Source: a virus
Direction: 5' to 3' (one strand)
IMG/VR virus record: IMGVR_UViG_3300037137_000640
Coordinates: 1 to 25,964 of that record
Length of the DNA: 25,964 bases
A program made the translations under genes and the position numbers. A model generated the notes under the pieces. That model made no database searches and was not told the DNA's origin. It worked only from the letters and a program-made list of their open reading frames with translations. How positions within the stretch are numbered: position 1 is the first letter of the stretch; every line of letters starts with the position of its first letter. Shown here in pieces: positions 1,988 to 4,815 of this stretch.

Positions 1988-2014
1988 GCGGGGGCGGGTG
2001 GGGCCCCCGGAGGT
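1977..2014 (+). pseudogene. Displaced 5' end of the helicase gene (cut off by the insertion)
   Basis: GTG 1977 has a GGAGG ribosome binding site at 1965-1969 with 7-base spacing. It reads MAPERGRVGPPEV up to the GGAGGT at 2009-2014. If this is joined to the GGAGGT at 3364-3369, the frame continues without a break into SGSIADEIRKDREELL of the helicase. I therefore read 1977-2014 as the original first codons of that gene. In the present sequence this frame runs into the AT-rich insert and stops at 2150 with an unrelated tail, so it is a remnant. Confidence 0.65.
2009..2014 (+). repeat. Left GGAGGT boundary repeat of the insert
   Basis: GGAGGT is the last part of the GC-rich left flank; the bases that follow (TCTAACTGCTTATG) are AT-rich. 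The same hexamer occurs at the right composition boundary. Both copies also match the Shine-Dalgarno consensus, so one repeat could be coincidental, but its place at both boundaries and the restored frame argue against chance. Confidence 0.6.
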
Positions 2015-2058
2015 TCTAACTGCTTATGAAAATCCAACAAAATCAAGAGGAGTGAAAA

Positions 2059-2229
2059 ATGAAAGTCATCAAAGTCACGAAAGAGTATTTCCAGACAGAG
2101 GACGAGAAGGTTTATTTCTTCGAGCCTTTGGAAAAAGAAATATCCGTTGAGGATATGCAGAAGGTTGTGGATGCAAACGAGAAATTAGTTAAGGAGTTGA
2201 AAGATGGAACAAATACCTTTTCCAAATAA
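2059..2229 (+). CDS. Small acidic/basic helical protein of the inserted element
   Basis: 56 residues from ATG 2059, preceded by a strong GAGGAG ribosome binding site at 2048-2053. The protein begins MKVIKVTKEYFQTEDEKVYF and ends with a charged helix (MQKVVDANEKLVKELKDGTN). Codon use is AT-rich, like the next two genes and unlike the phage genes. Its end overlaps the methyltransferase start by 26 bases, so the two are probably coupled. I do not recognise a family. Its fixed place before a DNA methyltransferase makes a partner or regulator role possible, but this is a guess. Confidence 0.65.
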   Translation: MKVIKVTKEYFQTEDEKVYFFEPLEKEISVEDMQKVVDANEKLVKELKDGTNTFSK

Positions 2230-2746
2230 GAAATACCAGATTATCTATGCTGACCCGCCATGGGATAGCAATTCTCAGTTCGGTAGGGATAAGAACAAAG
2301 GTAATGAGCAACACTATCCGCTAATGGATTTGGAAGCGATTAAAAAATTACCCATTAAGGAATTGGCAGACCAAAATTGTGTATTGTTCTTGTGGGTAGT
2401 GGATACACAGTTATTTGATGCTAAGCAGGTTATTGACGCTTGGGGGTTTATTTATAAAACAGTTGGGTTCACTTGGGCTAAAGAAACATCAACAGGTAAA
2501 GACCATTTCGGAGTTGGTATGTGGACAAGGAAAAATCCCGAAATGTGTTTGCTCGCTACTAAGGGGCATCCAAAAAGAATAAATGCTGGAATAAGGCAAT
2601 TACAAAAACACAAGGTTAGGGAACACTCACAAAAGCCAGATGAGATTAAAGACGAAATTGTTAAACTATGTGGCGACCTTCCCCGCATAGAACTTTTCGC
2701 CCGTCAAAAAACCGAAGGCTGGGATGTTTGGGGCAATGAAATATGA
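2204..2746 (+). CDS. MT-A70-family adenine-N6 methyltransferase
   Basis: 180 residues from ATG 2204, with AAGGAG eight bases upstream. MT-A70 proteins transfer a methyl group from S-adenosylmethionine to the N6 of adenine; in phages and bacteria the substrate is usually DNA. The catalytic motif DPPW is at residues 17-20 (IIYADPPWDSNSQF). Further family features are the YPLMDLEAIKKLPI segment, NCVLFLWVVD, WGFIYKTVGFTWAKE, the MWTRKNPEMCLLATKGHP loop and the C-terminal HSQKPDEI...RIELFARQKTEGWDVWGNE. Length is normal for the compact phage type with no separate target-recognition domain. No restriction enzyme is beside it, so it is an orphan enzyme. Codon use marks it as foreign to this phage. 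It overlaps the recombinase by four bases. Confidence 0.93.
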   Translation: MEQIPFPNKKYQIIYADPPWDSNSQFGRDKNKGNEQHYPLMDLEAIKKLPIKELADQNCVLFLWVVDTQLFDAKQVIDAWGFIYKTVGFTWAKETSTGKDHFGVGMWTRKNPEMCLLATKGHPKRINAGIRQLQKHKVREHSQKPDEIKDEIVKLCGDLPRIELFARQKTEGWDVWGNEI

Positions 2747-3360
2747 AAATATATAAAATCACAGAAGCAAGCGATTATCTTGGGGTGTCGATAAACACTC
2801 TCAAGACGCTTGCCAACAACGGAAAGATAAAATCTTTCAAGACGACTGGCGAACATAGGCGTTTCCGTCAGGAAGATTTAGACGCTTACATGGGAGTCGA
2901 GAAAGAGAAGCAAGAAAAGTTGACTGTGATTTATGCAAGATGCTCAACGGCAAAACAGAAAGAGAATCTTGAACGGCAGAAAGACAGGTTACGGAAACAC
3001 GCAGAAGCCAAAGGCTATAAGTATGCCCTGATTGACGAGATTGCCAGCGGAATAAACGAGAAGCGGAAAGGCATCCACAAGTTAATCAAGATGTGCTTCG
3101 AGGGAAAAGTAGAACGGGTGCTGATTGAATATAAAGACAGGCTTGCCCGATTTGGCTACGAATATCTGGACGCCATCTTTTCCAATCTGGAAATCACGGT
3201 TGAGATAATGGAAACCAAAGAGAAGAAATACGAAGAAGAATTGGCAGAGGATATTATGAAGATTCTGACCTGTTACTCGGCTCGGTATTACGGTGCGAGA
3301 GGCGGCAGGAAGAAGAAAAACAAGGTCGAGAATGAACCGGTCGAATCTAATGGAATTTGA
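2743..3360 (+). CDS. tnpA: IS607-type serine recombinase (TnpA-like)
   Basis: 205 residues from ATG 2743, coupled to the methyltransferase (ATGA). Residues 1-50 form a MerR-like helix-turn-helix (ITEASDYLGVSINTLKTLA, then GEHRRFRQEDLDAYM), the DNA-binding part placed N-terminally as in IS607 TnpA. Residues about 61-190 are the resolvase-type catalytic domain: YARCSTAKQ with presumed nucleophile Ser68, the IASGINEKRKG segment, and YKDRLARFG with D132, R133 and R136. The C terminus is a basic tail (GARGGRKKKNK). Length and all motifs look intact, so it may be active. No TnpB follows. The last 29 bases overlap the start region of the helicase gene. Such recombinases join circular intermediates at short GG-containing cores. 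Confidence 0.93.
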   Translation: MKIYKITEASDYLGVSINTLKTLANNGKIKSFKTTGEHRRFRQEDLDAYMGVEKEKQEKLTVIYARCSTAKQKENLERQKDRLRKHAEAKGYKYALIDEIASGINEKRKGIHKLIKMCFEGKVERVLIEYKDRLARFGYEYLDAIFSNLEITVEIMETKEKKYEEELAEDIMKILTCYSARYYGARGGRKKKNKVENEPVESNGI

Positions 3361-4618
3361 AAAGGAGGTCTCGGGCTCGATCGCGGACGAGATCCGGAAG
3401 GACCGGGAAGAGCTTCTCCGGAAGCTCGCGATCGACGATGAGGCCCTGGCGGAGCTCGAACCCGCCGGAGGGCCCGACCTCTGGCTGGAGTACGGCGCCA
3501 TGCTCGGCGAGCGCCGGGCGGCCGGGTCCCGGTTCTCGACCGGCCTCCGCGTCTTCGACGGGAAGCTCGAGGGAGGGCTCTATCCCGGCGTCGTGGTTGC
3601 GATCCAGGGGCCCCCTGCGGCCGGGAAGACCGGCTTGGCCTCTCAGATAGCCCTCTCCCTCGGTCGGGCTGGGTGCGCCGTCGGGGCGCTCTACGCCGAC
3701 GAAGGGCTCTCCGGGGCGGCCGTCATGCTCGGGCAGCAGTTCGGGGCGGCGCGCGTCCCCCTGATGGCCGGCGACGAGGGGCAGGCCCAGCTCGCGATCC
3801 AGGGGGCGGGGGCCCTCCCCTTCTTCCGGGCGATGCGCCCCTCCCACCACAGCGCCACCCTCGAGAAGTTCGCCGAGGACTTCGACGCGATCGCTCCGGC
3901 CGGGATGCAGCGCGTGTGGCTCCTGGATTCCGCTCAGACGCTCCGGCTCTCCTCGAAGAACGGGGGCGGGAAGGAGTCGCAGTTCGACCGGATCGCGCGC
4001 GCCGTCGAGATGGTGCGAGACCTGACCCTTTCCATGGGAGCCATCACGCTCCTCGTCTCTCGCGTGAACCGCGCGGCTTACGCGAAGAAGAAGGAGGAGG
4101 AGAAGGCGGACCCTCTCGGCTCGTCGTGGGGCGTGGCCCTCGAATACTTCGTCGAGCTGCTCGTCAACCTCGAGGGAAAGCCGACGCTCGAGAAGCCGCG
4201 CGTCGCCCTGCGCGTCTCGAAGAACCGGGTGTCGGCCTCAGGGAACTTCGTGCTCCCTCTCGACATGGATTTCCCGAGGCACGGCTTCAAGGAGGTGGAC
4301 CCGACGGTAGAGGAAGCCGAAAAGGACGCCGCAAAGCTGACAGTCCTGGCGCTGACCAAGGGAAAAATCATCGCCACACTGACCGGGCGAGATGGGGTGA
4401 GCGGGCGGGCCCTGGATAAGGAGGTCGGCGGCCCAGCGGCTGTCGTTCGGGAAGCCCGTCGTGAACTTGCTGTCGAGGGAAAGATTCACGAGCGGGATAG
4501 GGAGGGAAAAAAGGGCGGGGGAAAGGAGTGGTTTCTGGGGTCGACTGGTGGGGATTCTGGCAGGCGACCAGGAGGGGTTTCTGTCCCACTCTTCGGGGAC
4601 GAAAGGGAGACTGAATGA
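3332..4618 (+). CDS. RecA/DnaB-like replicative helicase ATPase with re-made N terminus
   Basis: 428 residues from ATG 3332 (AAGG six bases upstream); ATG 3350 is an alternative start. Both lie inside the end of the recombinase gene, on DNA brought by the insert. From about residue 66 the fold is RecA-like: FSTGLRVFDGKLEGGLYPG, Walker A GPPAAGKT (93-100), Walker B VWLLDSAQTL with D199, and a sensor-like strand ITLLVSRVNRAAY. The C-terminal part (LALTKGKIIATLTGRDGVSG, then AVVREARRELAVEGKI) looks like a winged helix, as in RepA/AAA_25-type phage helicases. It should unwind DNA at the phage fork, perhaps with the separate DnaB N-domain protein. The first 11 or so residues replace the ancestral ones beginning at GTG 1977. 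Confidence 0.85.
   Translation: MNRSNLMEFEKEVSGSIADEIRKDREELLRKLAIDDEALAELEPAGGPDLWLEYGAMLGERRAAGSRFSTGLRVFDGKLEGGLYPGVVVAIQGPPAAGKTGLASQIALSLGRAGCAVGALYADEGLSGAAVMLGQQFGAARVPLMAGDEGQAQLAIQGAGALPFFRAMRPSHHSATLEKFAEDFDAIAPAGMQRVWLLDSAQTLRLSSKNGGGKESQFDRIARAVEMVRDLTLSMGAITLLVSRVNRAAYAKKKEEEKADPLGSSWGVALEYFVELLVNLEGKPTLEKPRVALRVSKNRVSASGNFVLPLDMDFPRHGFKEVDPTVEEAEKDAAKLTVLALTKGKIIATLTGRDGVSGRALDKEVGGPAAVVREARRELAVEGKIHERDREGKKGGGKEWFLGSTGGDSGRRPGGVSVPLFGDERETE
3364..3369 (+). repeat. Right GGAGGT boundary repeat of the insert
   Basis: This copy of GGAGGT separates the AT-rich end of the insert (GAATTTGAAAA) from GC-rich helicase sequence. With the preceding bases it reads AAAAGGAGGT, a perfect Shine-Dalgarno sequence, but no start codon follows at a useful distance, so here it is coding sequence (Lys-Glu-Val) and the presumed recombination boundary. 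Confidence 0.6.
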
Positions 4619-4815
4619 GTCAAGTGCGTCTAACTGCGCTAAGTGCGTCTAAAAGTGCGTCTAGACGCGCCTTGTCTGTAACTGCGCTAGTGCGTCTAGC
4701 GCCTATAGTAAATAGGCGCGACGCAGACGCGCTTACGACAACTTGGAAAACTAGAAGGGCGGATTGGGAGTTAGACGCGCTTAGGAGAGCAGAACCGGGG
4801 ACGGTGGTCCCATGA
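4615..4815 (+). CDS. Small basic protein encoded across iteron-like repeats
   Basis: 66 residues from ATG 4615; its start overlaps the helicase stop (ATGA) and its stop overlaps the next ATG (ATGA). This exact fit at both ends suggests real translation, even though the DNA is unusually AT-rich for the phage and full of repeats. The protein is basic and Ser/Ala/Arg-rich at the front (LTALSASKSASRRALSVTAL) and ends TTWKTRRADWELDALRRAEP. I recognise no family. It might be an accessory DNA-binding protein, or merely the through-reading of a replication origin lying between two coupled genes. Confidence 0.5.
   Translation: MSQVRLTALSASKSASRRALSVTALVRLAPIVNRRDADALTTTWKTRRADWELDALRRAEPGTVVP
4622..4783 (+). 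repeat. Iteron-like repeat cluster, candidate phage replication origin
   Basis: (A/T)AGTGCGTCTA occurs at 4622-4632, 4641-4651, 4653-4663 and 4688-4698. AACTGCGCTA occurs at 4632-4641 and 4680-4689. Inverted relatives (AGACGCGCTTA) are at 4725-4735 and 4773-4783, and TAGACGCGC at 4662-4670. A perfect 12-base palindrome GCGTCTAGACGC spans 4657-4668, and a hairpin of 8 base pairs with loop AGTAA spans 4699-4719. Repeats, palindromes and lower GC directly after a helicase gene are typical of phage origins bound by an initiator. No initiator protein is recognised, so origin function is inferred. Confidence 0.6.

Follow-up and report, generated by a model that had tools for sequence, protein, structure and literature searches.

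A TnpB-less IS607-family element that probably shuttles exchangeable DNA-modification genes between phages

Introduction

What does a transposase of the IS607 family do when an adenine methyltransferase, and no TnpB, accompanies it? The question is raised by a locus in the IMG/VR virus record IMGVR_UViG_3300037137_000640. The window analyzed here is the entire record of 25,964 bases, possibly a fragment itself, in which profile matches identify terminase and portal genes elsewhere. The locus is an AT-rich island with sharp borders, flanked by a DnaB-N-like gene (PF00772) and a DnaB-C-like ATPase gene (phrog_19); interval by interval, the GC content is 39–43% within the island and 59–73% wholly outside it. 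A preliminary description, made from the letters alone, noted a recombinase, an intact methyltransferase with a DPPW motif and a small protein in AT-rich genes that overlap by 26 and 4 bases, without TnpB, and suggested that they form a distinct, undescribed mobile unit. Open reading frames (ORFs), Pfam matches and GC content bear this out: three ORFs on the + strand encode 56 (2059–2229), 180 (2204–2746) and 205 amino acids (2743–3360). The answer proposed here, with a probability of about 0.83, is that the island is a phage cargo transposon of the IS607 family that lacks TnpB and shuttles exchangeable DNA-modification genes.

A family with shared ends in unrelated phages

A search with the window's recombinase, TnpA, returned 65 viral loci. 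TnpA copies matched over at least 195 of the 205 residues are 77–100% identical to that of the window (best segment), with the exception of a remnant, L062 (37%); two more distant relatives are 41–42% identical, and the remaining loci are cut or broken. Alignment revealed a family-wide left end, GGTTnTAACTGCTTATGAAAATCCAACAAAATC..., which begins GGTTnTAACTGCTTATG..., and a family-wide right end, ...GAATCTAATGGAATTTRAAAAGGA, the latter overlapping the tnpA stop codon, while the length between the left end and tnpA differs among copies. Scans of viral contigs detected the left end in 70 stretches, the right end in 53 and the small protein at 79 loci, and the results were merged. Inspection by eye led to the removal of 12 of the 88 raw left-end matches as spurious, one of which (L321) had a real right end as its partner. 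The merged set contains 76 insertion sites, each with its own 30-nt left flank; at 41 of these the element is complete, with both ends. The complete elements measure 738–2,773 bp; tnpA is intact in 29 and missing or broken in 12. Comparison with these relatives places the window copy at 2012–3366 on the + strand (1,355 bp), so that the span of 2015–3363 given earlier located the island correctly and fell slightly short of its exact ends. Both ends are common to other complete elements, and for one sister element the exact empty site is known.

The phages that carry the element differ widely. In 52 copies with enough flank, the GC content of the flanks ranges from 28 to 68%, and that of the element from 30 to 42%. 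Joined flanks, compared with the loci fetched by then, matched only duplicate contigs, methyltransferase genes, nested copies and a few short stretches, which indicates that the host phages are mostly unrelated. A scan of one genome per species (84,980 species) yielded six loci on metagenome-assembled genome (MAG) contigs named Kuenenia, Thermoplasmatota, Gracilibacteria, Syntrophaceae, Patescibacteria, and Nanoarchaeota, labels that denote putative hosts; one of these loci, L211, sits amid phage-like replication genes, as judged by eye from its ORFs.

The small ORF, the MT-A70 methyltransferase and an intact TnpA occur together at six of the 41 complete sites including the window, in one case with further genes, so the trio is not confined to the phage lineage of the window. 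No TnpB was detected among the + strand ORFs of at least 100 amino acids in the 41 complete elements, which were grouped by BLAST and scanned with Pfam through representatives rather than ORF by ORF, with ORFs of 103, 118 and 145 amino acids lying outside the groups; the longest − strand ORF is 180 amino acids. The literature matches listed include no earlier description of such an element, preprints and most subscription journals being outside their coverage. The suggestion of a distinct mobile unit is thus upheld by sharp ends, unrelated phages and the lack of TnpB, and the unit is undescribed as far as the literature was searched.

Insertion at ribosome-binding sites

The left flank ends in A at all 76 sites, in GA at 69 and in GGA at 63. 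The right flank starts with GG at 29 of the 41 complete sites, and its second base is G at 37. Smaller earlier sets, one of them with 34 of 35 complete copies (duplicate E14 removed), gave the same picture. In a set of 66 of 70 left ends (four duplicate sites removed), GG opened 36 of 51 distinct right flanks. The full word GGA^GG is present at 25 of 41 sites; among insertions after GGA, 25 of 34 are followed by GG, compared with 270 of 4,933 control GGA sites in the flanking DNA. The start codon of an ORF lies 4–10 nt past the insertion at 18 of the 25 GGA^GG sites, compared with 107 of 270 control GGAGG sites (Fisher p 0.0025), and the usual target therefore appears to be a Shine-Dalgarno sequence. 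Insertion at such a site also keeps the word GGAGG ahead of the element, and the right end, which reads AAAAGGA, then places AAAAGGAGG in front of the gene downstream. As read from these junctions, the element splits a Shine-Dalgarno sequence and its right end rebuilds it.

An unlikely but serious alternative is that TnpA merely prefers the word GGAGG, the link to ribosome-binding sites being a by-product helped by selection and the ends not being adapted. A sizeable share of the control GGAGG sites, the 107 of 270, do precede a start codon already. Insertions do so more often, as the Fisher test indicates, and the right end itself reads AAAAGGA and completes AAGGAGG, which argues for a right end fitted to ribosome-binding sites. 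In-frame splitting of genes was considered as a general rule and rejected, as a long ORF can be read from the right end after only a few insertions, that of the window among them.

The invariant A in the left flank makes GA or AG more likely than the GG of IS607 as the exchange dinucleotide of this family.

The cargo slot and its exchange

In 34 aligned copies, elements of different cargo classes resemble each other over the first ∼240 nt, as far as a stretch of the type AAGGAGTTGAAAGATG, beyond which the sequence varies with the cargo. At the other border of the slot, the first bases of tnpA (ATGAAAATCTATAA) supply the stop codon of the cargo. The two genes overlap by four bases (ATGA) in 20 of the 32 complete copies with a recognizable tnpA start, and by 14 bases in nine of the remaining 12 (hand count).

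Cargo families were tested on representatives and the other cargos classed by BLAST to these. Methyltransferases of six families occupy the slot in 26 of the 41 complete elements: N4/N6 (10), MT-A70 (8), phrog_757 (3), C5 (2), Dam/D12 (2), and phrog_11619 (1). Mom is the sole cargo of two elements, and a third Mom accompanies two methyltransferases. PAPS-reductase-like, or SspD-like, proteins are carried by eight elements, a radical SAM protein by one, and cargo of no recognized type by four. The three representatives of the PAPS-like class match PADLOC's SspD, a DNA phosphorothioation protein (1e-16, 2.7e-19, and 7.8e-9); their activity is putative.

The cargo appears not to follow the transposase. 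On a tree of 31 tnpA genes, built without the duplicate E14, the cargo classes are scattered, with 17 changes over 27 labeled rows and nine classes (minimum 8), rows labeled unknown being omitted from this count. MT-A70 alone requires seven changes for eight rows, close to the shuffled mean of 7.3. Distances in the left arm track those in tnpA (r 0.84, n 29; main clade 0.50, n 21), whereas a difference in cargo class shows no correlation with tnpA distance (0.07, p 0.12; main clade −0.02, p 0.57). E14 and the window copy, E00, which is truncated, are excluded from these comparisons, and the main clade omits eight more divergent copies. The middle of the element therefore seems to be swapped while its arms stay together. 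Copy E08 (locus L014, right end not found) is a mosaic: nt 1 to ∼165 belong to one subfamily, ∼165–245 and the cargo, which is related to that of copy E22, belong to another, and tnpA belongs again to the first. This mosaic points to cargo exchange by recombination. Copy E28 (L045) carries the remnant of one cargo together with a second cargo, and the start of its tnpA is repeated.

These observations bear on the role of the methyltransferase. The preliminary description had suggested that it could mark donor and empty sites in place of TnpB; in this form, the modification enzyme would do the work of TnpB, by marking sites or by shielding the element, and so favor retention. Such a role would explain why some ORF fills the cargo slot in 41 of 41 complete elements, usually coupled with tnpA. 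It is improbable, since cargos as different in chemistry as C5, N4/N6 and Dam-like methyltransferases, Mom, SspD-like and radical SAM proteins do not fit one marking mechanism, since cargo class does not correlate with TnpA relatedness, and since a copy without TnpA has moved (see below). For the same reasons, the methyltransferase looks like exchangeable cargo, and it most likely benefits the phage.

Several individual cargos merit mention. Four complete elements (L029, 1795–2268; L040, L041, and L042) carry small proteins of unrecognized type, some with pairs of cysteines; L040–L042 form one tnpA clade and might encode new modification or defense-evasion proteins. A near-identical phage (contig 36761_001614; loci L002/L217) has the same insertion with an MT-A70 ORF of only 140 amino acids, which may reflect a decaying cargo or a sequence error. 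For L213, on the Gracilibacteria MAG contig, the host label implies a genetic code in which TGA is read as glycine, yet the element generally has TGA stops in its overlaps; perhaps the contig was misbinned or carries the wrong host label, or else the cargo is read through.

Precise insertion and the empty site

Copy E43 is a 1,068-bp element with an SspD-like cargo and without tnpA. A search with the 30-base junction of its joined flanks matched one other contig, IMGVR_UViG_3300038428_000030 (L325). This contig and the occupied phage L150 are identical over 644 of 644 bases to the left and 356 of 356 to the right, and differ by exactly 1,068 bp; the left flanks of L204 and L207 are 99.7% identical to L325 over 1,326 and 1,294 bases. 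The element is mobile, as its exact insertion is seen here against a near-identical phage. No match to tnpA was found in any of the four records at this site, which may be fragments and were searched without a positive control; the E43 copy has thus probably moved in trans, and recently.

Two intragenic insertions, E20 in a DNA methyltransferase gene and E22 in a gene for a MazG-like pyrophosphohydrolase, are consistent with this precision. The joined flanks read as one protein in both cases, and each protein gives a single alignment to phage homologs that spans the junction (best identity 49% and 44%, respectively). No target-site duplication was seen: the net gain equals the length of the element and frames are restored at the two intragenic sites, a 2-bp overlap within GGAGG being indistinguishable. 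When joined flanks were compared by BLAST with the loci retrieved up to that point, no empty site came up.

It is very unlikely that the element is no longer mobile and marks a recombination hot spot at which modification genes are swapped between conserved flanks with tnpA as a passenger. The exchange of cargo does resemble homologous recombination; no two of the 76 sites have the same 30-nt left flank, the joined flanks match as little as described above, and the insertion at the E43 site already contradicts such a view.

The left arm and the small protein

An ATG or GTG 12 nt past the left GG opens a leader ORF in 35 of the 76 left ends, and its stop codon overlaps the ATG of the small ORF; 13 left ends with an ATG stop earlier, and 28 have no such start codon or no recognized small ORF. 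The leader of many relatives has 28 codons and is coupled through ATGA. The divergent subfamily L040–L042 has a left arm that is 18 nt shorter and retains the overlap. Such overlaps suggest that the genes of the element are translated in relay.

Of the 41 complete elements, 36 contain a relative of the small ORF (∼50–65 amino acids across the family). The 56-residue protein of the window has no match in Pfam or NCBIfam and none in 50,697 phage records at E 0.01; weak matches to UvsY (E 0.035) and Cas5fv (E 0.007) were rejected as chance. AlphaFold2 predicts three short strands and one long helix (mean pLDDT 82, pTM 0.36), and no function is claimed for the protein because the best fold match in the PDB has an E value of 4.1. 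Median dN/dS values of 0.047 for tnpA, 0.072 for the small ORF and 0.061 for MT-A70 are consistent with purifying selection, from codon pairs with dS of 0.02–2 only (133 tnpA, 200 small-ORF, which is the upper sample size, and 15 MT-A70).

The copy in the window

The window copy lies, on the + strand throughout, between the left half of its target, GGA (2009–2011), and the right half, GG (3367–3368), near the start of the ATPase ORF. Its left end (GGTTCTAACTGCTTATGAAAATCCAACAAAATC..., 2012–2047) is ∼50 bp shorter than in most relatives, and the absent stretch carries in those relatives a promoter-like TTGCTT-17-TATATT, identified by eye. A putative leader of nine codons, MKIQQNQEE (2026–2055), ends just 5′ of the small ORF (2059–2229), which encodes the element-specific protein with a conserved N-terminal part and a tail set by the cargo. 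The cargo gene (2204–2746) encodes an MT-A70 adenine methyltransferase with DPPW at residue 17 (PF05063, E 2.5e-31; phrog_359; PADLOC Type II MTase, 1.9e-67). The product of tnpA (2743–3360) is an IS607-family serine transposase with an HTH_17 domain (PF12728) at residues 4–50 and a resolvase domain (PF00239) at 62–194; it scores 188 bits against the NCBIfam IS607 model NF033518 (cut-off 110), and Ser68 in YARCST is taken to be the catalytic serine. The nearest PDB chains are 6dgc, 3lhk, 3ilx, 3lhf, and 6dgb. The right end, GAATCTAATGGAATTTGAAAAGGA (3343–3366), overlaps the tnpA stop codon and rebuilds AAGGAGG together with the flank.

The N-terminal part (1607–1987) and the C-terminal part (3350–4618) of a DnaB-like helicase are separate ORFs on either side of the element. 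The downstream ATPase gene (422 amino acids) is readable now from an ATG at 3350 within the right end, which also supplies an alternative in-frame ATG at 3332. Once the flanks are joined, its ORF is continuous with a GTG at 1977, a start chosen by the analyst, and this frame suggests that the gene lost its own start. No empty site for the window copy was found, as a search of viral contigs with the ATPase matched only this phage again and a fragment whose first base already lies within the gene. Further downstream, at 4620–4760, repeats of GTGCGTCTA and its complement lie just before the next gene in a stretch of somewhat lower GC content; read by eye, they are perhaps the iterons of a replication origin.

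Comparison with known mobile systems

The TnpA of the element resembles those of the IS607-family insertion sequences IS607, ISC1904, ISC1926 and IS1535, with an N-terminal MerR-like helix-turn-helix and a C-terminal serine-recombinase domain. The lack of a target duplication and the short repeated AAAATC motifs near the left end (by eye) are also family traits. Unlike these insertion sequences, the element carries a variable modification gene and the conserved ORF of ∼50–65 amino acids instead of TnpB. Two reports describe the IS607 target as GG with little further specificity and its exchange dinucleotide as GG (PMC6188088, PMC4058570), whereas the target here is GGA^GG with an invariant A at the left, with the full word at 25 of 41 sites. 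According to PMC6188088, tnpB is dispensable for IS607 transposition. Relative to the IS607 family, the exchangeable modification cargo, the targeting of ribosome-binding sites and the absence of TnpB appear to be new. That the window holds an ordinary IS607 insertion sequence that once gained a methyltransferase passenger, the remainder being descent, would agree with its bona fide IS607 transposase and is highly improbable, given a slot with at least nine gene families while near-full-length TnpA stays at least 77% identical to that of the window, the scatter of cargo on the TnpA tree and the mosaic E08.

IStrons, in which IS607 or IS605 elements are joined to a group I intron, are described as inserting without harm to the host gene (PMC4227781); the present element is alike in this respect, but here it appears to be through the ribosome-binding site that damage is averted. 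No group I intron was matched by Rfam in the two stretches searched, the window and L028 (4000–6600). Integron gene cassettes are exchangeable single-gene cargo in a fixed expression slot, served by a tyrosine integrase and attC sites. The element shares the swappable single-gene cargo and the fixed slot, but it uses a serine transposase, its cargo is mostly for DNA modification and is exchanged apparently through homologous arms, and attC sites, which were not searched for, are not known in it. The cargo itself belongs to or resembles phage orphan methyltransferases, Mom and SspD/DndC-like genes, which are carried here on a dedicated mobile element.

Some tnpA genes are themselves interrupted. 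An ORF of the NUMOD3 type (196–199 amino acids) lies right after the first seven tnpA codons (ATAAAATCACAG^G) in L048, L056 and L211, and a related ORF is present in L045; the one scanned, in L211, has a weak REase-like tail. It is possibly a homing-type endonuclease with its target in tnpA. In L028 (5588–6496), tnpA is interrupted near YY^GARGG by a LAGLIDADG ORF of 303 amino acids whose end continues into the tnpA tail; an intron was considered there and dropped, as Rfam gave no match.

A proposed mechanism and its weak points

The unit with its ends, the variety and exchange of cargo, precise insertion and the target bias are read directly from the sequences, and a mechanism can be proposed around them. 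TnpA probably excises the element as a circle, the junction of which, AAAAGGA-GGTTCTAAC, would read GGAGG; that TnpA drives transposition is suggested by its family membership and the empty site. The circle would insert in one orientation at GGA^GG, which in most cases is a Shine-Dalgarno sequence. At the left junction that sequence would be retained ahead of the overlapping ORFs for leader, small protein, cargo and tnpA, and the right end (AAAAGGA) would rebuild it for the downstream gene, so that the host phage may be little harmed. The cargo slot lies between the conserved left arm (∼240 nt, ending in a Shine-Dalgarno sequence and a start codon) and the start of tnpA, the first bases of which give stop codons in two frames, and homologous recombination in the two arms would replace the cargo. 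The type of cargo suggests that its products modify phage DNA and so probably block restriction by the host.

A number of observations weigh against this proposal. Seven of the 76 left flanks end in A but not in GA, 16 of the 41 complete sites are not GGA^GG, and 20 lack the start codon of an ORF within 12 nt; the window site itself is GGA^GG but has no start codon just 3′. Consensus promoter scans did not flag TTGCTT-17-TATATT, a sigma-70 promoter visible by eye only. A second junction scan, with copy E05, found no empty site, leaving one natural empty site overall. When all 11 cargo groups are counted on the tnpA tree they are slightly clustered, with 19 changes (minimum 10, shuffled mean 21.5), a value as low in 5 of 200 shuffles, mainly owing to three unknown-cargo rows in one clade. 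Cargo is of unrecognized type in 4 of 41 complete elements, and DNA modification by the PAPS-like (8) and radical SAM (1) cargos is only putative. Records of phage isolates (50,697) and of plasmids (72,556) contain no relative above 60% identity.

Significance

The element moves between unrelated phages, usually into ribosome-binding sites, and may be a shared kit for evading bacterial restriction. The Shine-Dalgarno sequence precedes most genes of many bacteria and archaea. Tentatively, and at somewhat less than even odds, the element represents a categorically new platform for exchange from phage to phage, with that sequence as its attachment site, one orientation of insertion, a neighboring gene left unsilenced and a library of modification genes that are quickly swapped. 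The gain or change of modifications that defeat restriction has mostly been described in phages as vertical descent or chance recombination. Here a dedicated vehicle would be at work, with a highly conserved TnpA, phage flanks of 28–68% GC and different modification chemistries in one slot, and anti-restriction would be a shared, modular trait across phages of very different hosts. Ribosome-binding sites would join the known safe targets of mobile DNA, with a right end shaped for rebuilding them. A serine transposase with a 5-bp preference is a potentially useful tool for one-way insertion, and the cargo slot, with its unrecognized and radical SAM cargos, could be mined for new DNA modifications.

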